Shown here: one piece after another, positions 9,993 to 38,080 of the stretch
Numbering within the stretch: position 1 is the stretch's first letter
How the letters are laid out: every line of letters begins with the position of its first letter
Assembly (NCBI GenBank): GCA_027574665.1
Contig: CM050651.1
Location: forward strand, 1,985,501 to 2,049,500
Origin: Rhynochetos jubatus
Taxonomy: Eukaryota; Chordata; Aves; Eurypygiformes; Rhynochetidae
Length of the DNA: 64,000 nucleotides
Direction: 5' to 3'
Position numbers and translations under genes: made by a program
The notes under the pieces: model-generated
What the model was told of the DNA's origin: nothing
The model's database searches: none
The model's input: only the letters and a program-made list of their open reading frames with translations

Positions 9993-12577
9993 AATTAGGC
10001 CTTGAATTAAAAAATGTGATGGAGGAGGGAAGCAGAAATATGCAAACACACAGAGACGTGTGATTTCAGAAGCATTATTTTCCTAGAAAATTAATTAAAC
10101 ACAGCTAATTTCAAAGATATGGTCTGAGAACACAGTCATGCTTCTATATATGTAAAGGGACTATTGCCTACAATTTTGACAGGACCTTCTGCAGCTGGGT
10201 CTTAACAATAAAACTCAGCTACAGTTGCTTTCAGTTTGGGCAAGCTGAAATTGTTACAGCTGGAATTTCCTGCACTGAATTACTTATTCAGGCTAGTGAT
10301 TTTCTTTTAAGTTCCATCAAGAGCAGTTCAGTCATTTCCAAAAACAAATTAGCAGAAATATGCCTTTTTTTTTTTTTTTTTTTTATGTAAGGAAAACGTT
10401 TATAACCATTTCATTAAAGCTGTGCTTTTTTAGTGTATGTGTTCAAGTTTGGCAGCCTAGAAAACCCACACAAACTTGTCCAAGTCATGAGTGGCTTAGC
10501 TTACATAACGGCAGAAGAGATTTGTTGGCACTGTATAGCTGGTCTTCAGGTTTCTCTTCACAATGAATATATGCCATCTCAGAGCTTCAGTGGGAAACAG
10601 AGCGCTCTGTATAAAAAAACAAGGCTTCCTGCAGGAACAGTGTGGTGAAGGCTGAGGAACAGCAATCCATGATGCCGCTAGTACACAGCAGTGGAATTTC
10701 AGTAGCATGAGTGAATGGAGCACACAGCAAAAAATTAAGACAGGGTTAAGGTGAAAGGAAGGAGGAAAGGTTGGGTGCAGCAGAAGTGGGAGGATTTATG
10801 AACACTAAAGCATATTCTTCTTAAGAGCCTGAAACTCAATTCTGTTCTCACTGCCTTCCCCTTATTTAATCCTTTTCAAAAGGTATTATACCTTTAATCA
10901 CAGGATGATGTAACTATTTCCTTTTCCTTTCACATGATTTATGAACAAAATGGATTCTGTTCACTGAATGGACCAAGCTCCTGAAAAAAATGCTGTGCAA
11001 GTGTCACTATTTGAAAAAGGAAGATGTGTAGAAAAGGAGGCAGAAGTCACAGAAATAAAAGCATGGATTCAATGGCAAAAGGAGCAACAGAGAGTCCTGT
11101 CCCTGCCTTCATCTCACCATCTCCCTGTGATTTCAGCAAGTTCCTTAATGCAAATTCTTCACAAGTGACATTCGTTTTCTGAGTTCCCTCCTACAACAAA
11201 TCTTGACTTTAAGTTGCTGCCCTTAGGATTAAATGCTTCATGCTCCCCAAGCATATATTTCTACTCATTATAGTCAGCTAGCTCATGTGCAGGTTTCTCC
11301 AGTTCAGAGACTACAGTTCAAAGAAATGAGTGCCCTCTGTAGAGCTTAGTTCAAAAAAGCATTGAGTTCTCACAGCTGTTTGTGTTCACAAACAGCACCC
11401 AGTTTGTTCTGGGTACTATGTGTGAAAACAGACAATCCTAGGGAATGCTAAACAATCTCTCTAAAAAAAAATCCACCTCCAGGTGTCACATACTGGACCC
11501 AAAATAATTAGGTTTTTCTGATCTTTTTCCATTTGTAAAGTAAAATTCCCATTTTCTTATTCTTCGGGACTTCTTTTGAGAAAAATGAGCTAGTTCATGT
11601 CCAAGAAATAACTGGTTACTCTACTGATAAATGCCATAAAGAGAGGGCAAAAAAATATAAAATTACTTATTGTGCATTTACAACTTGGTGCAAGGAATGT
11701 GTAGCAAGTCAGACACGGGGCCATACAAAAGAAGAATACATGAAATATAGGATATCTCCTTTTCCCAGTTTTCCTGGGTTTTATTTAAAGATATATATAT
11801 ATATTCTAGCCAGTATAAAATCATATTACTTGTGTCCATGTAACTATTTATGTAAGATACAGTGTAACTATTTATGTAAGATACAGTGTAACTAAGGCTG
11901 TAGATCTTCTTTTTATTAAATAAAAAACATTTAAAATTAAATAAAACAAGTAAAAGCAAGCTGTAAGGAGCAAGGCAGCATGTAAATCCCAATTTGATTT
12001 TTGCCATCACTAACAGCCGGTGTTGTTCATCGCAGGGCAGGCTGACCCCTGGAATCCCCAGGCTGAGAACAGGACCAGGGCAGTCCCAGGCAGGCTTCCA
12101 GTGCCACCCTCCTTCTCGTCCCTGCTAGTGCCTGGCAGCAATCTACGCTGCATGTGGCAGCCCTGAGTACAACTGATCATGTTAACTCTAGTACCAGAGC
12201 TAAACTAGCCTCAGGCATGTGAAACACTGTTTGATCTATTTACCCTGCCAAGAACCACCATAAGGAAAAACTGCACCCAGCAACTAGACCATTACCAAAG
12301 TACACTAGCAGGGAAACAAACCATACTTTTTGTTTTTCTGCCACAGGCTACAATAGATAAGCCTGCGAGAGTTACTGTGACTCCCCTTCCCATGATCCTT
12401 CAAAGCACACTACATGCACACAGTTTTAACAGGTATACAGGTGAATATTATTTTAATGACATTCAAACTGAGGCTACATGACTCACTAGAGTGCCAGCAT
12501 GGTTTATATAAACAGAATAACAAATACTATTTTATAAAACTTAACAAATATTATTATTGAACAATAATAATTGAACA
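9993..12577. other. No recognisable gene; simple repeats and a GC-richer patch
   Basis: Contains a 20-base T run at 10365-10384, an (AT)n stretch at 11791-11804 and a 24-bp tandem duplication annotated separately. A moderately GC-rich patch at about 12015-12170 has no identified origin. No convincing exon was seen. Confidence 0.5.
11840..11894. repeat. 24-bp tandem repeat, 2.3 copies
   Basis: The unit beginning GTAACTATTTATG and ending ATACAGT occurs exactly twice in a row (11840-11863 and 11864-11887), followed by the first seven bases of a third unit. The copies are identical, which implies a recent slippage or short duplication event. Confidence 0.9.
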
Positions 12578-13178
12578 GGGCTTATGCAGCCCTGAGGAGA
12601 AGGACTTGGGGGTACTGCTGGATGAGAAGCTGGACATGAGCCAGCTGTGTGTGCTGGCAGCCCAGAAAGGCAACCGTATCCTGGGCTGTATCAGGAGAGA
12701 AGGATACAGACCAGTTGGAACGAGTCCAGAGGAGGCCCATGAAGATGCTCAGAGGGCTGGAGCACCTCTGCTATGAAGAAAGGCTGAGAGAATTGGGCTT
12801 GTTCAGCCTCGAGAAGAGAAGGCTTTGGGGAGACCTTATAGCAGCCTTCCAGTAGGGGAGCTGGGGGGGGCTTTTTACAAGGGCCTGTAGTGACAGGACA
12901 AGGGGTAATGGGTTTAAATTGAAAGCAGGGAGATTTAGAGTAGATATCAGGAAGAAATTCTTCCCGGAGAGGGTGGTGAGGCACTGGAACAGGTTGTCCA
13001 GAGAAGCTGTGGGTGCCCCATCCCTGGAAGTGTCCAAGGCCAGGCTGGGTGAGGTTTTGAGCAACCTGGTCTAGTGGGGGGTGACCACTAGACCCTCCAG
13101 GGTTGGAGGGGAGTTGGAACTAGATGATCTTTAAGGTCCCTTCCAACCCTAACCATTCTATGATTCTATGACTCTATG
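12578..13178 (+). mobile_element. CR1 LINE, 5'-truncated, with internal deletion
   Basis: A good CR1 3' end in plus orientation. It starts in the C-terminal part of ORF2 (residues like [17 protein letters not shown]), loses about 30 or more codons after GCIR, and resumes at LERVQRR. It continues through the conserved [20 protein letters not shown] segment and the 3' UTR (AACTAGATGATCTTTAAGG) to the tail TTCTATGATTCTATGACTCTATG-like octamers ending at 13178. No target-site duplication is apparent, as expected for CR1. It encodes no reverse-transcriptase core and is dead. Confidence 0.95.
12691..12855 (+). pseudogene. CR1 ORF2 C-terminal remnant
   Basis: In-frame remnant of the CR1 ORF2 C-terminus inside the element at 12578-13178. 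The conserved block [26 protein letters not shown] and [15 protein letters not shown] is readable, then a stop follows. The upstream join to the preceding reverse-transcriptase segment is a deletion. It is not a functional gene. Confidence 0.85.
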
Positions 13179-14893: not shown

Positions 14894-14945
14894 AATAGAA
14901 TCATAGAACGGCTTGGGTTGGAAATCAGAAGTCCTTTTGTCTGTG
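14894..14945 (-). mobile_element. CR1 LINE 3' tail fragment
   Basis: The segment reads ATAGAATCATAGAACGGCTTGGGTTGGAA on the plus strand, the reverse complement of the CR1 3' end (TTCCAACCCAAGCC followed by ATTCTATG-type octamers). Only the last 40-50 bp are recognisable; beyond that the match fades. Confidence 0.78.
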
Positions 14946-22205: not shown

Positions 22206-23010
22206 TTAGAATGAAATAGAATCAAATCCAATCCAATCTTTTAGGTTGGAAAAGACTTTCAAGATCATCAAGTCCAAGTTAACCTGACACTGCCAAGTCC
22301 ACCACTGAACCACATCCCTAAGCATCACATCTACACGTCTCTTAAATACCTCCAGGGACTGTGACTCAACCACTTCCCTGTGCAGCCCGTTCCAGTGCCT
22401 GACAACCCGTTCGGTGAAGAAATTTTTCCTAATACACAATATAAACTTCCCCTGGCGCAATTTGAGGCTGTTTCCTCTTGTCCTATCACTTGTCACTTGG
22501 GAGAAGAGACCACCCTGCAGCTCTCTGCAACCCACTTTCAGGTAGTTGTAGAGAGCTGTAAGGTCTCTCCTGAGCCTCCTCTTCTCCAGGCTAAACACCC
22601 CCAGTTCCCTGAGCCACTCCTCACAGGACTCGTGCTCCAGACCCTTCCCCAGCTCCATTGCCCTTCTCTGGACACGCTCCAGCACCTCAGTGTCTTTCTT
22701 GCAGTGAGGGGCCCAAAACTGAACACAGGATTCGAGGTGCAGCCTCACCAGTGCTGAGTACACAGGAGGAGAATCACTACCCTAGTCCTGCCAGCCACAC
22801 TATTTCTGATACAAGCCAGGATGCAATTGGCCTTCTTGGCCACCTGGGCACACTGACGGCTCACCAGCTGTTGACCCACACCTCCAGGTCCTTTTCCACT
22901 GGTCAGCTTTCCAGCTGCTCTTCCTCAGGCCTGTAGTGTTGCGTGGGGTTGTTGTGACCCCAGTGCAGGACCCAGCTCTTGGCCTTGTTGAACTTAAGTT
23001 GCCTGTTCTT
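22206..23010 (-). pseudogene. CR1 ORF2 C-terminal domain remnant
   Basis: The C-terminal part of CR1 ORF2. One 185-codon frame (22206-22763) is still open and contains [75 protein letters not shown] and [20 protein letters not shown]. Upstream, in another frame after a frameshift, are the preceding residues [17 protein letters not shown] and the KFNKAKSWVLHWG motif. The length of the open frame reflects conservation of the element family, not a host gene. Confidence 0.92.
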
Positions 23011-29275: not shown

Positions 29276-29437
29276 CCATAGACTCATAGAATCATTTAGG
29301 TTGGAAAAGACCTTTAAGATTATCAAGTCCAACTGTTAACCTGACACTGCCAAGTCCACTACTAAACCATATCCTTAAGCACCACATCTACAGTTCCTGC
29401 TGGCCACACTATTTCTGATACAAGCCAGGATGCTATT
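29276..29437 (-). mobile_element. CR1 LINE fragment with internal deletion
   Basis: On the plus strand it starts CATAGACTCATAGAATC and TTTAGGTTGGAAAAGACC, the CR1 3' end in reverse, and continues to CACCACATCTACA. It then jumps directly to CTGCTGGCCACACTATTTC, which encodes the reverse-transcriptase C-terminal residues [11 protein letters not shown] on the minus strand. About 400 bases of the consensus are therefore missing at the join near 29394-29398. Confidence 0.88.
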
Positions 29438-29977: not shown

Positions 29978-30053
29978 CTACTCTGCTTTCAGGTAAAGCT
30001 GTTACTCTTCAAGAACATAAAGCACTCCCACTAATAGAAGAAGCAACTTAGTG
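29978..30053 (+). repeat. 76-bp direct repeat, left copy
   Basis: Begins CTACTCTGCTTTCAGG and ends GAAGCAACTTAGTG. It is identical over all 76 bases to 31005-31080, and the two copies bracket the duplicated 951-bp segment. It behaves like a long target-site duplication. The sequence resembles no transposon terminus. Confidence 0.95.
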
Positions 30054-31005
30054 AAATACTAATGTTAATTTTTTGATTCAGCAGGGGAAACCACCTAGTG
30101 ACATTGACTGCAGTACTTTTATCACTGCACCTACTCCTATTGTTCTTTGTTGTTTTGCTAGAATTTTTTTAATGTACCTTCTTGCCTGTTCCTTTAATAT
30201 CTGAGGCTGTTCACAACACATATTTCTACTACCTTTGAAACTGTTGTAAAGCCATATGCTACAAAGTCAGAGTGATAAGACAAATGGAGACAACTTTGGG
30301 CAATATACAGCCAGCTGGCTAAAAAAGATTTTAGGAAATACATCTTCTTGCTTGAAAAAGAAAGGGGGGGGGGGGGGGGAAGTCAGGGGGAAAAAAAAAA
30401 AGAAAAAGCTTAATGGCAAGTATGTGAAAGCATTTAAAATGCCTGTGTGTATTAAAAGCAGAATTATTGCTTAGCTTACTCTCTGTGATTCCCAGCTCAG
30501 AACTTGATTCCAAATACCCTGCTTTAATACTAACCAAATATAGATATCCTGTGAATGATCTTGGGGTCACTGAAGTAACAGGTCTTTTTTTTTTTTTTTT
30601 TCTTCTTTCTTTTTTACTGTCTTCAGTGATCTTTGATATGAGGTCCTATTTTCCATTTTGCTTAATGTTCCTTATTTCCTTGGACATCCTAATAGAATTT
30701 TCTTCTTGTGCAATATTTACTGAATGCAGCCATAAGAGGTGTGTAGCCTTTTGTGAGAAAAGTTGGGTTTTTTTACTGCTTCTAGATACTTTTTAAGTTT
30801 TATGGTAATATCTTCATGTATTTTTTCATAACTTGTAAAATTAGAAGAACTCTTCTGTCTAAATGCAGGCACAGAAACTGTCTGTCACTGATAAGCTGCT
30901 TGTTATCTTCTAGCTACAACAAACACTGTCTTGATTTTGTTTTCCATAGTCTTTCCAGCTGACTGGTTCTAAATTTCTGTGCAATGACACTCCATGATCA
31001 CCTGC
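30053..31005 (+). repeat. Inserted copy of a 0.95-kb duplicated segment
   Basis: Nearly identical in the same orientation to 35777-36728: I count about seven substitutions outside homopolymers, plus length changes in G, A and T runs. The most visible difference is a 16-base G run at 30364-30379 where the other copy has GGGGTGGG. No terminal inverted repeats, poly-A tail, LTR or coding frame of a known transposon is present. The flanking 76-bp repeats mark this copy as the new one and the 35.8-kb copy as the probable source. Confidence 0.93.
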
Positions 31006-31080
31006 TACTCTGCTTTCAGGTAAAGCTGTTACTCTTCAAGAACATAAAGCACTCCCACTAATAGAAGAAGCAACTTAGTG
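31005..31080 (+). repeat. 76-bp direct repeat, right copy
   Basis: Exact copy of 29978-30053. It overlaps the inserted segment by one shared base at each side, so the junctions carry at most single-base microhomology. Downstream sequence (GGGTAACAAG) is presumably the original continuation of the target site. Confidence 0.95.
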
Positions 31081-32702
31081 GGGTAACAAGAATTTTTCAC
31101 TATGTAGGTCTGAATGTAGGATGTATCCTTTCTCTTCAGCTGAAGTTCTCCCATCTGATTTTTTTTTTTCCCCGTAAGTAACTTGCTGAAAACCACAGGA
31201 AAATGGATTACTGCTTTTTTTGCTTTCTATAAAATTGAAGCTATGGGAATAGTTTGTCTGTACACATTTAGTATTTTGCACAGTGTAGGGCCAGCTGGTA
31301 TGCAGGAGGTCTCTGGAGAGACGTCCTTACCCTAAAGTAGCAGAGCCTTGTCAGGGCCATAATTCTTTCTGGCCCAAGCTATAGCACCATGTACAGATGG
31401 GGCAGGATGTAGGATAGGCGATGCTGTTAGAGTACCAGGCTACACAGGAGTGACCAGATGCAAAGAGACCATCCCGAACCACCCAACAGGATATTTTGTT
31501 GGTATGCTTTCCACCATTAGTTTCAGTAGATACCTCAGTGCACGCTGTTGTATCTGTATGGTGACCAGCTCTTCTTCTAATGCTGATGGACACTGATCCC
31601 ATTATTAGATCACAAAATTTTAAGTAAGAGGTACATCTCTGCTTTTATAGAGTGCATATAACAGCTGAGATAATTTGGATGACCACCACAAAAACAAAAA
31701 AAAAAAAAAAAAAACCAAACAAAACAAAAAACCAGTTTTAGCTATTAAGGCTGTAGGAATAACTTAAGATTGTATTACCTGAAAGTAAAATGGAATTGGT
31801 AGATGATAAGGAGAGCATCTCCTAAGTGTAATACCTTGTAGTCCTTGCATGAAGTTATGCCTTCCTTTTTATCTGCCTGAAAACAGGCAAAGGAAAAAAT
31901 GCTGAAAGAGGCGAGGTGTCCTAGACACTAATGTTACTGGCTGTTATACAAAGGAGGCTGACTATTCACTTTGACAGTTAAGTAGGCAAGACTCAAGAAC
32001 ATGGCTGTTTGGTGCAAATGCAGATCCCTGCACTAAGTGACTAATGTACCAGACAGAATTATTCTATTGCTCTCCCTGGGCTCATTTTGTCTGGCTGGGA
32101 AGCTAGCACAGCTGCATCACTGCTGTTAGCTTGTGAAGGCCAGCTGAAGTATCATTCCTCCATATTCTTTTCTACAGGAAGTTGTCCTGTCTGTCTGCTA
32201 AAAGTTGAGCTGAGCATTCATGTGTGTCCTCACTCCTCTGCAGTGACTGTGCAGAGATCTGAGATGGTGAAAATTAGGAGTCTGACTTACACCTAGCCCA
32301 GTTGTCCACAACTAACATTGTGAATATCCTTTCTATGCCTACCTGTGCAGCTGCAGCAGGCAAACAGTATTAAAAGACAGATATATTACTCCCCTGCACT
32401 TCCAGCCCTATCCTTAAACAGGCTTGCCTGTGACTTTGTTCCTGCTGCTTGCTCTGTGTTTTCTATTAGTTCTGTATCTGTTTCCATTTCAGTAGACTTT
32501 TCTTCCCAAGCTCTTGGCTTACTAATCTTTTGATCTACTCTTTACATAAAATATTAATTGTGATCCTATTTTTTCTTGACAGAAATATCCACCTTCCTCC
32601 AGTGCCTCTTCCCTGTAGGTCTTTCATGTTACAGCACTGAGGCTGTTTTTTTACCTTCAGGTATTGTAATAAAGGTGTATCTGCAGTAGGTCCTGTGAAT
32701 AA
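31081..32702. other. No recognisable gene
   Basis: Contains an A-rich tract at about 31689-31714 and a T run near 31160. Open frames are short and unlike known proteins. Confidence 0.5.
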
Positions 32703-33030
32703 TCATAGAATCGTTTAGGTTGGAAAATATCTTTAATATCATTGAGTTCACCTATTAATCTAGCACTGCCAAGTTCACCAATAAATCTACATGTCTTTTA
32801 AATGCCTTCAGGGATGGTGACTCAACCACCTCCCTGGGCAGCCTGTTCCAGTGCCTGACAGCCCTTTCTGTGAAATTTTTTTTCCTAATATCCAATCTAA
32901 ACCTCCCCTGGCACCTTTTTCTCTTGTTCTGTCATTTGATAGTTGGAAAAAGAGACACACACCAAGCTAGTTACAACCTCCTTTTAGGATAAGGTCTCCC
33001 CAGAGTCTCCTCCAGACTATGAACAGCCTG
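32703..33030 (-). mobile_element. CR1 LINE 3' fragment
   Basis: On the plus strand it starts AATCATAGAATCGTTTAGG and runs through CTAGCACTGCCAAG, CATGTCTTTTAAATGCC, GGTGACTCAACCACCTCCC, GGCAGCCTGTTCCAGTGCC and CCAATCTAAACCTCCCCTGG, the reverse complement of the CR1 3' UTR and ORF2 end. Past about 32930 the match becomes ragged. It is a 5'-truncated dead copy. Confidence 0.93.
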
Positions 33031-35776
33031 GCAAAGAAGCCCCACATCATCTCAGAGGCACATGTGGAAAAAGTATCCTAAATGACTCTGTGCCTTGTTG
33101 CCTATTTACCACATCAGTTGGGACACGTACATTGCCAAAGAAAGGGGGGAATTTTAAGACATATGTAAGAGTTAATACATGCTTTCCCTGGCAAAGGCTC
33201 ATGAGGAATAGCTTTGTCTGCAGCCATTTCTCGGTGTGCTCATAGGTGCAGCAGGCATCTTGTAAAGTTGAGTGCCTTCAAGAGGCAGATGGGATTGCAG
33301 AAGCCTTTCGTGGGATCTGGAGACAAGAATGTGCTTTTAGGCACATTGAAATGAAGAGTAGCTGTGAGAGGCAAATAGAAACTAGGATGATATTTAAATA
33401 ATAGGAACAATAAAAATAATCCTCAGTGCAGCTGAAAAGCAAATAAAAAGGACATTTCAGGATTACAAATGACAGGAAGACAGAAAGGTGGATCAAGGAT
33501 TGATAAAAAAGCAGACAGAAAAGAAACTCCTGCAATATAATGTCAGTTTGATATATATGTATCTCTTAAGTTTTCCTGAATTCAATAGCAAGAAATAGAA
33601 TAGTTTGAACCTCACTAGTTTTACAAACAAGTTTTATTTCTCAAAACTTCAAAAACAAAATGTGAAGATGGATCACTTGCATGTCTGGTGACACTAACTC
33701 TTTCTTGTAAGATTTTTTTTTTTTTTTTTTTTTTTTGTCTAGCTTTAGGAATCCTCTGGCATTTGTTACCCAACTTTCAAGATTACTTCTCAGATAGATT
33801 TTTTTTTTTTTTTTTCTTTTATAACCAAAAAGAAATATGAGTGCACAGGAAGCATAGCTTGACAGCGAACAGAGTTGAAGAAGTTTTCACAGTTTGCAGC
33901 AGAAATTTAAACATTTTCTAGTTGAGGTCCAGTCCACAGAACACTGGAGAGTGAAACAGCTGCAGTCAGGGGAGGCAAGCAAAGGACTGGACAGTAAATA
34001 CTTCATGTGGGAAATCCTTCCTGGACAACGCAATTTATTTGTGAAATTTACTGTATTGCCCCTTCTCTTCCATTCCTGTTTCTTAATGCAGAGTGTGCCC
34101 AGAAGAAGCATTATTTAATAGATCATTTAAATGGGTATTTAGAGCATAATTTGGAGGTCACATAGACTATATGCTCTTTCAGACAGACTCATTAAGGGAA
34201 CTGACACTTTGAAAAACAGGTATTTCAAGGTGTTAAGTAACCTAAATTCCAGTTAATTATATGATAGCCAAGGACAACCACTTTTTTGCCATTTGGGCTC
34301 CTCTTCTCAGCACTATGCTCTGTTCAAATCCACAGCCTTCAGCACTCCAGAGTTTGAATAATTACATCCTTCCTTTCAATAAAACCCAGAGTGTCACTCA
34401 TTCCTTTTAAAAGTTAGTTGCTTGGCATCCCTGTAAATGCTGTAGTTCCAGATGCGGAGTACAGTGTGAGTCCCCAGTTGAATTTCTAGGCCTCTGATTT
34501 ACTGTGCCTAGTGCCTTGGCTTTGAGCTGCTTTGAGATCAAGGTGACACTTTTCCTTGTGAGGCTGTTCCTACATGATTATATCCTTTTTTAGAAGGTGG
34601 ATGTATAACCACAGCCAGACATAATAAACCTCATGAAATGTTTTAACCGGTAAACTGGGTCCAAAGTTGCTTAAGACTCTTGCCCGAGGAAGGAAAAGTC
34701 TACCTGAATTACAACGGGTTGCTCCCAATTTCACGCCTGTGCTGCCTACAGCTCTTGCCACACACTGAGGAGGGCATGCTTAGCTTGTTTTCAACTGGCC
34801 AGAGGAAGAACAGCAAAGAAAACCTGAGCTGCTCAGATGCCTGGGTTTGAGCTCAAATGTTCTATTTCAAAAGAATGAGGTTAATGCAGTGTCTTGCAGA
34901 GACCTGGGTTTTGTGGTGTATGAATGTGCTGTTCTTAGATGGAGACTTTGCATCTTGTTTGTGAAATCTGGCTAGGCTCAGATAGGGAACTAGGAATGGC
35001 AGTTTGATGTATGTCTAGAAGTCTAACTGCAAATACCTGAAAAAATGTAAGGTCTAGTCAAGAAAAGAGGGACGTATGAAGTTTAGTGTTTAAAATACTG
35101 GTTAGCAGCAACATGCCTGCAGGGGGAAAGAATGGGGTGATGTATTAATTACAGCTTTGGGCATAAACACATTGCAGTATCATTTTTGTTCATATTAGCC
35201 TTCTCTTGGATCTAGCTTCATAAATACAAGAGCAGTAGGGAGTAAATAAAGTCATATTGTTTAGGCCAGTATTGCACTGACAACAGAGCTCAAGAAAATA
35301 TGCTGACAATTCACAGTACAGAGGAAAAATTTGAAGACAAGAGATATAATGCTAAGGTTTTTAGGTTCTTTTAAAATTTCAATCTTGTTTTTATATGTAT
35401 TAAGGGGAGTTTCTCAACTTCCGTGGAAGGAAATTTTTCTTTGCATACCACTGAATTAATCCAGGTGATTGTTTCTATAGTGCCTCAAGATGACTGAAAC
35501 CTGGGAGCCGTAACTTTCTTTAAAAAACAGAAGTTAACTTGATAATGAATCAAACTGTGGACATTGCCTGTCCATCTCTAGCAGCCTGCCTCCTTTGACT
35601 TGCTGAGTTGCTGGTCTGGTTTGGTGTTTTTTTATTATTTTATTGTGGTTTCTCTCTCCTATATTTTAATTTCTTTCAGTTATGAAGCTATTTCCTAGAG
35701 ATTCTGACTGGCTCATTTAGACTTCAAAAAAAACAGTGATTGTTCAAATCCAATAATTCTGGAACTTTCCAGTGCA
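33031..35776. other. No recognisable gene; long T runs
   Basis: Includes a 24-base T run at 33713-33736 and another at about 33801-33816. No repeat family or exon was recognised. Two mirrored 74-codon frames at 33887-34118 are shadows of one another. Confidence 0.5.
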
Positions 35777-36728
35777 GAAATACTAATGTTAATTTTTTGA
35801 TTCAGCAGAGGAAACCACCTAGTGACATTGACTGCAGTACTTTTATCACTGCACCTACTCCTATTGTTCTTTGTTGTTTTGCTAGAATTTTTTTAATGTA
35901 CCTTCTTTCCTGTTCCTTTAATATCTGAGGCTGTTCACAACACATATTTCTACTACCTTTGAAACTGTTGTAAAGCCATATGCTACAAAGTCAGAGTGAT
36001 AAGACAAATGGAGACAACTTTGGGCAATATACAGCCAGCTGGCTAAAAAAGATTTTAGGAAATACATCTTCTTGCTTGAAAAAGAAAGGGGTGGGAAAAA
36101 AAAAGTCAGGGGAAAAAAAAAAAAGAAAAACTTAATGGCAAGTATGTGAAAGCATTTAAAATGCCTGTGTGTATTAAAAGCAGAATTATTGCTTAGCTTA
36201 CTCTCTGTGATTCCCAGCTCAGAACTTGATTCCAAATACCCTGCTTTAATACTAACCAAATATAGATATCCTGTGAATGATCTTGGGGTCACTGAAGTAA
36301 CAGGTCTTTTTTTTTTTTTTTTTTCTTCTTTCTTTTCTACTGTCTTCAGTGATCTTTGATATGAGGTCCTATTTTCCATTTTGCTTAATGTTCCTTATTT
36401 CCTTGGACATCCTAATAGAATTTTCTTCTTGTGCAATATTTACTGAATGCAGCCATAAGAGGTGTGTAGCTTTTTGTGAGAAAAGTTGGGGTTTTTTACT
36501 GCTTCTAGATACTTTATAAGTTTTATGGTAATATCTTCATGTATTTTTTCATAACTTGTAAAATTAGAAGAACTCTTCTGTCTAAATGCAGGCACAGAAA
36601 CTGTCTGTCACTGATAAGCTGCTTGTTATCTTCTAGCTACAACAAACACTGTCTTGATTTTGTTTTCCATAGTCTTTCCAGCTGACTGGTTCTAAATTTC
36701 TGTGCAATGACACTCCATGATCACCTGC
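35777..36728 (+). repeat. Probable source copy of the 0.95-kb duplicated segment
   Basis: Matches 30053-31005 at about 99%. This copy lacks flanking direct repeats: its left neighbour is CTTTCCAGTGCAG and its right neighbour CAGCCTGCTGG, so it is probably the donor. It holds an interrupted G run (GGGGTGGG), two A tracts and a T run of about 18. A 153-codon minus frame at 35918-36379 spans these homopolymers and looks fortuitous. Confidence 0.92.
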
Positions 36729-37980
36729 CAGCCTGCTGGTTCGAGACGGGATAATGGTAGCACAGATTTCTCAGTGAGTTTTGACTTCCCATCCTGCTGT
36801 CACCCCTATGTAACTTAGTAACTTCTATGCTTTCCAATATTTATATTCTTTAGGAACTAAAGAACTGCTGCTGTTGCAGGTTAGTGCCCTAAGCTGCTCT
36901 TTGTGATGGAGGAGTCCCTGGATGGGGTTTTGACAATGCAAATGAGATATATAGCTGCTTCTGAATAAGCTTCCTATAGGAAATGTTCCTTCTGCTTTCT
37001 CAAAGTGGATACTAATTTAATGGTTTTGAATGATAGCTGTCAAGCATTCACCAAAATGTTGACAATCAATATGTTTCTCTTTCATAATTCCTATGCAATT
37101 CCAACCTTCCTTATGCTATCCTATTATATAAGGTAATTGTTCTACAGGCTTTTCAGAAAATCAGTTTTTCAGGGAAGTATGAATACTGACCCAGTTAACT
37201 CTTTTCTAAAAACTCACTGGAAGACTTTTTGCAGTATGTGCTGTTTGACAGAAATATTTAGTAATTTGAAAAATTTTCTCCTATGTTTTTATCTTTGCCC
37301 CCCTCCCCCCCACCCCCCCCACCCCCAAAGTTATGTTTGTAAAGTGAAAATATATGCAATAATTTCAGTACTCTTGAAAATACTTGCTGAAATTTCTACA
37401 AAAACAAGGATGTACAAACATGGATGTTAATTCATTTTAAAATATATATTCTTAATATATTTGTCCTGGCCTCAATACCATTTTCCTGGTATTTCAAAGG
37501 GGTTTTTTTTATTTACTTAAATCAGATTAGATTAGATCAAAACAAGTTGCCCCTCTGGTTTTGTCATCACTGTCTGTTTAAATAGACTGCAATTGGAAAC
37601 TACCTAATGGACTTACTTCCTGAATTGACTAAGAGCAGTCTTTGATTTTATTGCATAACTGACAGCAAAATACTTATTTTTAAAAGTCTCCATTTAAGTT
37701 TACACATATAAATCAATAATGTTAAATAGTCAATCATAATAACTTGCTGGGGATGCCGTAGAACACGCCTTGTCATAACTTTCCCCATCCCTCTGAAACG
37801 CTTAGCACAGAATAGAAGAGGCAAGGTTAGTATGGAGAAGCAGTATCTCCTCTAGCACCAGCTGGTATAGGCAAAAGGAAGAGGCGAGCTTCCAGGTACT
37901 GTCTTCTGCAGCAGGGGTAGCAGAGATTAGGAACAGCTGTCCTGTTGCTTCAGCAGCAAATTACATGAAGGAAATTTATA
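36729..37980. other. No recognisable gene; C-rich tract at 37298-37326
   Basis: AT-rich. The tract at 37298-37326 is nearly pure C with single T or A interruptions, so on the minus strand it gives four G runs of five or more, a strong G-quadruplex motif. Nothing else was recognised. Confidence 0.55.
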
Positions 37981-38080
37981 AATAAAACTCAGAAGCTTGG
38001 CTGACCTGATCACCTGCAGCAAATTTCCTTTCGGTCATTTTCTGCTGATGATCAGGTCAGCCAAGTTTCTGAGGTTTATT
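37981..38080. repeat. Imperfect inverted repeat, 39-bp arms, 22-base loop
   Basis: The left arm (37981-38019, starting AATAAAACTCAG) and right arm (38042-38080, ending GAGGTTTATT) are reverse complements at 35 of 39 positions, with no gaps. The longest uninterrupted pairing is the CTTGGCTGACCTGATCA core. The size, about 100 bases with a 22-base loop, fits either a microRNA-type hairpin or a small palindromic element. I cannot match it to a named microRNA. Confidence 0.88.

Follow-up and report, generated by a model that had tools for sequence, protein, structure and literature searches.

Duplications of tens of bases commonly arise when staggered double-strand breaks are filled in (PMC8355091, PMC5730883). 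In the tests described in PMC8355091, breaks with 3′ protruding ends of 43-50 nt gave small tandem duplications via fill-in and NHEJ. Among the smallest events examined in rice, 70% are simple tandem duplications, which become rarer beyond 125 bp; they are ascribed to the repair of adjacent nicks (PMC7971508, which deals with rice insertions and cites Vaughn and Bennetzen 2014). Two further groups of rearrangements have a related anatomy. In the DUP-NML-DUP or linked interspersed duplications described in PMC12616954 and PMC6902434, and put down to FoSTeS/MMBIR, two direct duplicated segments enclose normal sequence on one chromosome. In the templated sequence insertion polymorphisms of PMC5110952, another place in the genome is copied and the donor stays intact; as these are defined there, class 1 typically carries poly-A and LINE-1 site features, and class 2 is without duplication of the recipient sequence. 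Finally, false heterotype duplications in bird assemblies can give near-identical copies on one scaffold with haplotype-like divergence (PMC9516828). Here, we describe a locus in a bird genome that shares features with each of these systems, and we weigh the routes by which it could have arisen.

A 951-bp copy between two identical 76-bp segments

Within the window, by which we mean the whole stretch of 64,000 nucleotides that was analysed, the segments follow each other in the order B(76)-D(951)-B(76)-C(4697)-D(950). The features are as follows.

29978..30053, + strand: left copy of the 76-bp recipient segment B, identical to 31005-31080
30054..31004, + strand: inserted copy of segment D, 951 bp, the putative new copy, matching 35778-36727 in the same orientation
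31005..31080, + strand: right copy of the 76-bp recipient segment B, identical to 29978-30053
31081..35777, + strand: spacer C, 4697 bp, between insertion and donor, not duplicated
35778..36727, + strand: putative donor copy of D, 950 bp, with unrelated and unduplicated flanks (from alignment and layout)
30053..30054, no strand: join 1, from B to D, one shared base (G)
31004..31005, no strand: join 2, from D to B, one shared base (C)
30363..30408, + strand: G/A tract of the new copy, differing strongly from donor positions 36087-36130

The original prediction held that the 76-base repeats are identical, and we found them to be so at 76 of 76 positions, with the boundaries exactly at these bases. 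A 25-mer of B, searched with up to 3 mismatches, has two sites only in the window, where none is expected by chance. The repeats directly abut the insert on both sides, and the edges of the copied unit are those of B to the base. Only the D copy at 30 kb has duplicated flanks; those of the copy at 35.8 kb resemble neither each other nor B. Because duplicated flanks are found there alone, and because the copied unit and B meet at exactly the same boundaries, the layout indicates that the new copy is the one at 30 kb and that the D at 35778-36727, intact and about 5.7 kb to the right, is its donor. By the same reasoning from layout, B appears to have been duplicated in the very event that placed D at 30 kb.

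No third copy of B or D is present in the window, nor is there a near-identical copy of spacer C, whose CR1-like pieces at 32703-32912 match old fragments. Self-BLAST of the window (E 1e-6, low-complexity filter on) gave no other near-identical duplication, the five further rows (80.7-93.0% identity) corresponding to CR1-like fragments and one palindrome.

Other orders of events were considered and rejected. A 76-bp duplication that existed beforehand was rejected, as both ends of the copied unit meet the repeat edges to the base, and the same exact coincidence at both ends speaks against copying in the other direction. Excision of a circle followed by its reinsertion would need the circle to open exactly at its own joint. 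As for NAHR between the CR1-like pieces (about 29284-29437 and 32703-32912), none of these touches a join.

The two D copies align over 954 columns, of which 935 are identical; 15 columns hold substitutions and 4 hold gaps, one gap column being merely the end of the chosen interval. The BLASTN identity is 98.1%. Nine of the 15 substitutions fall in the G/A tract, where an unbroken run of G in the new copy faces GGGGTGGG followed by A's in the donor. Outside this tract we counted 6 substitutions in about 916 sites, that is 99.3% identity (0.65% divergence), a count that omits the 9 tract substitutions, the gap columns and a round 35 sites. The figure of about 99% first given for the pair is thus correct without the G/A tract and too high over the full length. 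A G-quadruplex pattern fits the new copy at 30364-30390 and not the donor in our pattern scan. The difference in the tract reflects either rapid tract evolution or a weak point of sequencing or assembly.

If substitutions accumulate as in the zebra finch, at 2.0e-9 per site per year (PMC12047795), a divergence of 0.65% between the copies corresponds to an age of about 1.6 million years (95% interval 0.6-3.6), with the reservation that the species' own rate may differ. The event would be younger if the other haplotype had served as template for D or if an error-prone polymerase had made the copy. At that age, 0.5 differences are expected between the two B copies and the probability of none is 0.61; their identity is thus likely anyway and adds nothing on age.

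One shared base had been claimed for each junction and this was confirmed. Such identity is at chance level, at least 1 bp being shared by 43.5% of random position pairs from the window. Since chance gives as much, the one-base matches cannot serve as evidence for microhomology-driven switching and lend no support to microhomology as the driver of the event. Neither join contains unexplained bases. Join 1 is without in-register similarity (p 0.87 for the in-register score), and at join 2 there are 8 matches in 12 positions in register across the join (p 0.09 for the best in-register score).

Secondary structure was assessed at the four break positions. Hairpins can be drawn by eye right after the donor's right end (CCAGCCTGCTGG) and just before its left end (CTGGAACTTTCCAG). 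The folding energies are unremarkable, with combined p of 0.20 to 0.46 for stretches of 30, 40, 60 and 100 nt, each compared with 3000 random positions, and a count of stems gave 0.50, 0.39 and 0.54 for distances of 0, 5 and 10 bases (against 1000 random positions). In none of the tests made did secondary structure at these four positions exceed background. A 2026 preprint reports that G-quadruplexes are 11.5-fold enriched around structural-variant breakpoints in birds (PMC13320814). Here, a plain pattern scan placed no such pattern at a join; the nearest are the one at 30364-30390 in the new copy and another at 37298-37326 on the - strand, beyond the donor and about 570 bp right of its end. 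A 100-bp near-palindrome (37981-38080, 82% self-complementary) is also found about 1.25 kb right of the donor.

Mobile elements and assembly artefact

The insert had been described as lacking transposon hallmarks, a statement that held when we tested it. Neither poly-A nor an A[AT]TAAA poly-A signal occurs in the last 60 bp at either end of D, and no terminal inverted repeat could be recognised (9 of 30 terminal matches). Helitrons begin with 5′-TC and end with CTRR-3′; the ends of D read AA and CCTG and are not of this type. The breaks, GTGTTTTGTA/CTACTC and, on the other strand, CTTGTTACCC/CACTAA, do not show a TTTT/A target site. No Rfam family reaches threshold in the window, ARAGORN (bacterial-code setting) detects no tRNA gene there, and the two frames of at least 110 aa inside the D copies match no Pfam family. 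A mobile element was rejected on the absence of poly-A, of terminal repeats and of Helitron ends, together with the position of the CR1-type octamers, which lie away from the joins.

One could still imagine an RNA-templated insertion by the enzyme of a retrotransposon, CR1 or another, that is to say a class 1 templated insertion with an unusually long target duplication. In human class 1 templated insertions the recipient sequence is indeed duplicated, over 5 bp or more (PMC5110952), and CR1-like pieces lie close by. Nonetheless, poly-A and its signal are absent within 60 bp of the ends, TTTT/A is absent at the breaks, and 0 of the 4 CR1-octamer-like matches of the window lie at a join. Moreover, 76 bp is long for a target duplication, and altogether we hold this explanation to be highly improbable. 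The length had been singled out from the start as odd for a target duplication: it is indeed long for a transposon, and it looks less strange when the 76-bp repeat is taken for a small tandem duplication, a better reading than that of an odd target-site duplication. No more credible is the proposal that D belongs to an undescribed dispersed repeat family of which the two copies are independent insertions: flanking repeats are found at the 30-kb copy only, D has no terminal structure, and the window holds no third copy.

The surroundings of the locus contain CR1-like sequence. CpG dinucleotides are far rarer in the window than expected (observed/expected 0.165). A frame of 191 aa at 22206-22781 (- strand) matched 7961 of 8000 scored candidates at E 0.001. 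Among the 120 matches listed, every named row is a bird protein (seven rows are unnamed); they come mostly from the wood stork Mycteria americana, then from Grus japonensis, Limosa lapponica, Pygoscelis and Cariama, and are called hypothetical protein or reverse transcriptase. Stork proteins are the closest among those listed, followed by crane, which agrees with an avian setting. We take this frame to be CR1, and it matches no Pfam family at E 0.1. Pfam was run on 10 of the 28 frames of at least 110 aa: nine, the CR1-like frame among them, have no match at E 0.1, and one has a sub-threshold match to CD52 (17.5 bits vs a cut-off of 27). Octamer ends of the CR1 type were found at 13155-13178, 14894-14909 and 29277-29292, with at most 2 mismatches to the motif. 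CR1-like fragments are located at 22206-22828, 29284-29437, 32703-32912 and 13112-13178. Elsewhere in the window, a 24-bp unit is repeated 2.3 times without error at 11839-11894, with a further partial copy to 11902. In a collection of viral contigs, which is not expected to hold bird DNA, a 36-base piece of the 76-bp repeat had no exact match and the CR1-like frame no relative.

The arrangement could also have been made by the assembler, if the donor's other haplotype had been misplaced into a false gap between contig ends that still overlapped by 76 bp. An overlap of 76 bp is k-1 for a de Bruijn assembler with k = 77. A misplaced donor haplotype is conceivable because the tract-free divergence of 0.65% falls between the heterozygosities tabulated in PMC9516828 for hummingbird (0.34%) and zebra finch (0.95%). 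According to the same source, false duplications represent 2.3% of the hummingbird and 0.5% of the zebra finch VGP assembly, 61-92% of the false duplications in VGP assemblies lie on one scaffold, and wrong gap-filling produces depth-gaps, which leave no N. The most divergent tract is also a long G/A run. However, undetermined bases are absent from the window (0 of 64,000), whereas a gap between the copies is a hallmark named in PMC9516828. The match stops sharply at both ends, brings along no donor flank and abuts the repeat exactly on both sides, and for these reasons an artefact would need coincidences; nor is there any other near-identical duplication in the 64 kb. Overall, we consider an artefact unlikely. 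That a local templated insertion with duplication of the recipient sequence really took place, by one or the other of the two routes discussed below, appears to us probable.

Two routes to the same arrangement

Our leading explanation, which we hold tentatively, is one single germ-line repair accident in which a staggered break was filled in and received a locally templated insert, giving B-D-B-C-D. The geometry can be read from the sequence itself; what we infer from it are the staggered break, the enzymes of the fill-in (CST/Pol-alpha-primase or some other polymerase) and the joining of the ends. Breaks in opposite strands about 76 bp apart would generate a staggered double-strand break, and filling in both single-stranded ends would retain the 76 bp on each side. 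Before closure, one end would be extended by copying about 950 bp from the site 5.7 kb to the right or, alternatively, a patch made from the donor site would be captured. The ends would then be joined with almost no homology, leaving a short tandem duplication whose insert was templated nearby.

Such a course of events is consistent with perfect 76-bp repeats that abut the insert, with donor flanks that are unrelated and unduplicated, with 1-bp joins at chance level that contain no unexplained bases, and with the lack of transposon features. In a table of PMC12616954, the two 0-bp joins of one kind are assigned to NHEJ. Several observations count against a filled-in break. Duplications with inserts templated in cis are tied in PMC5730883 to polymerase-theta joining in NHEJ-lacking cells and nearly all have microhomology, whereas only 1 bp is shared here. 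The rice figures cover simple tandem duplications and, given the 951-bp insert, bear on the 76 bp only by analogy. Inserts at experimental breaks in human cells measure 73-414 bp (PMC5110952), shorter than the 951 bp observed. A donor that lies 5.7 kb off and points the same way is explained no less well by replicative template switching, and the in-register similarity at join 2 (8/12, p 0.09), weak as it is, also counts against a filled-in break.

In replicative template switching (FoSTeS/MMBIR), B would have been copied, followed by a jump of 5.7 kb to D and a return to the start of B, the product being a miniature direct DUP-NML-DUP. The 76-bp repeat would then be a part copied twice and not a filled-in overhang. 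A forward and a return jump suffice to give the order B-D-B-C-D, the donor is near and in the same orientation, and the weak similarity at join 2 (p 0.09) goes in the same direction. Direct paired duplications on either side of a normal segment have been described as a class and attributed to MMBIR (PMC12616954), and very short segments do occur, case 1 of that paper holding an inverted duplicated segment of 148 bp. At least 1 bp is shared at 138 of 155 and 135 of 148 germline junctions in PMC8421209, as is the case here, figures that concern short inverted copies from within 100 bp. Against template switching, the identity at both joins is at chance level only, and join-points with at most 1 bp number only 19 of 159 in human PLP1 rearrangements (PMC6902434), which fits better with the joining of filled-in ends. 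In addition, 80% of the cancer junctions examined in PMC8421209 have 2-12 bp (mean 3.7), a weak yardstick given the kind of copies concerned, and the DUP-NML-DUP cases of PMC12616954 are mainly far larger.

A filled-in break and a two-jump template switch give exactly the same letters, and join identity separates them weakly. We lean towards the filled-in staggered break, and template switching is a serious possibility that we regard as nearly as likely. The original prediction had proposed that a neighbour was copied into this site through repair of a staggered break or through template switching. This is the proposal best supported by the anatomy of the locus; two points call for revision, namely the treatment of the 76 bp as a target-site duplication and any use of the one-base matches as evidence for microhomology-driven switching.

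Relation to known systems

In the literature we found no account of this locus or of a bird example of the pattern, in a search that was not exhaustive. Nothing found suggests a function for the product. If real, the locus is an unusually clean natural record of one repair or replication accident, since its sequence gives donor, recipient, direction and the two joins at single-base precision. It would also mean that a recipient duplication alone need not point to a transposon, and a classification of bird structural variants should then include templated insertions flanked by long duplications. One can go further and suppose that birds have a recurrent class of insertions, in which wide staggered breaks (50-150 bp) are filled in and patched with about 1 kb from the same neighbourhood, a class missed by transposon-based annotation and lying between the two published classes of templated insertions; this we find very doubtful, and a single case opens no new question.

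Compared with false heterotype duplications, with which it shares near-identical copies on one scaffold and a haplotype-like divergence, the locus is gap-free, has sharp ends and carries a duplicated 76-bp recipient sequence. Like the templated sequence insertion polymorphisms of PMC5110952, it holds a copy of another genomic place whose donor is intact. However, the donors described there are distant and this one is 5.7 kb away. The insertion fits neither class as defined in that paper, because class 1 typically comes with poly-A and LINE-1 site features, absent here, and class 2 comes without the recipient duplication, present here.

The likeness to DUP-NML-DUP lies in the two direct duplicated segments with normal sequence between them on one chromosome. 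The scale differs, with 76 bp and 951 bp over 6.7 kb here vs mainly 90 kb to 2 Mb in the published cases (PMC12616954), and the joins share 1 bp only. With the staggered-break tandem duplications (PMC8355091, PMC5730883, PMC7971508), the locus has in common a perfect direct duplication of tens of base pairs at the break and, as in the NHEJ form of these events, little or no microhomology; some of their inserts are likewise copied from the same molecule. The templated inserts of PMC5730883 were counted from within 250 bp of the break, in contrast to the 951 bp from 5.7 kb found here, and those systems rely on induced breaks, whereas this is a natural event in a bird. Since staggered-break tandem duplications, some with templated inserts, and direct DUP-NML-DUP have already been published, the accident is of a type known from other organisms, its parts being described in print, and the present locus is a tidy example of it.
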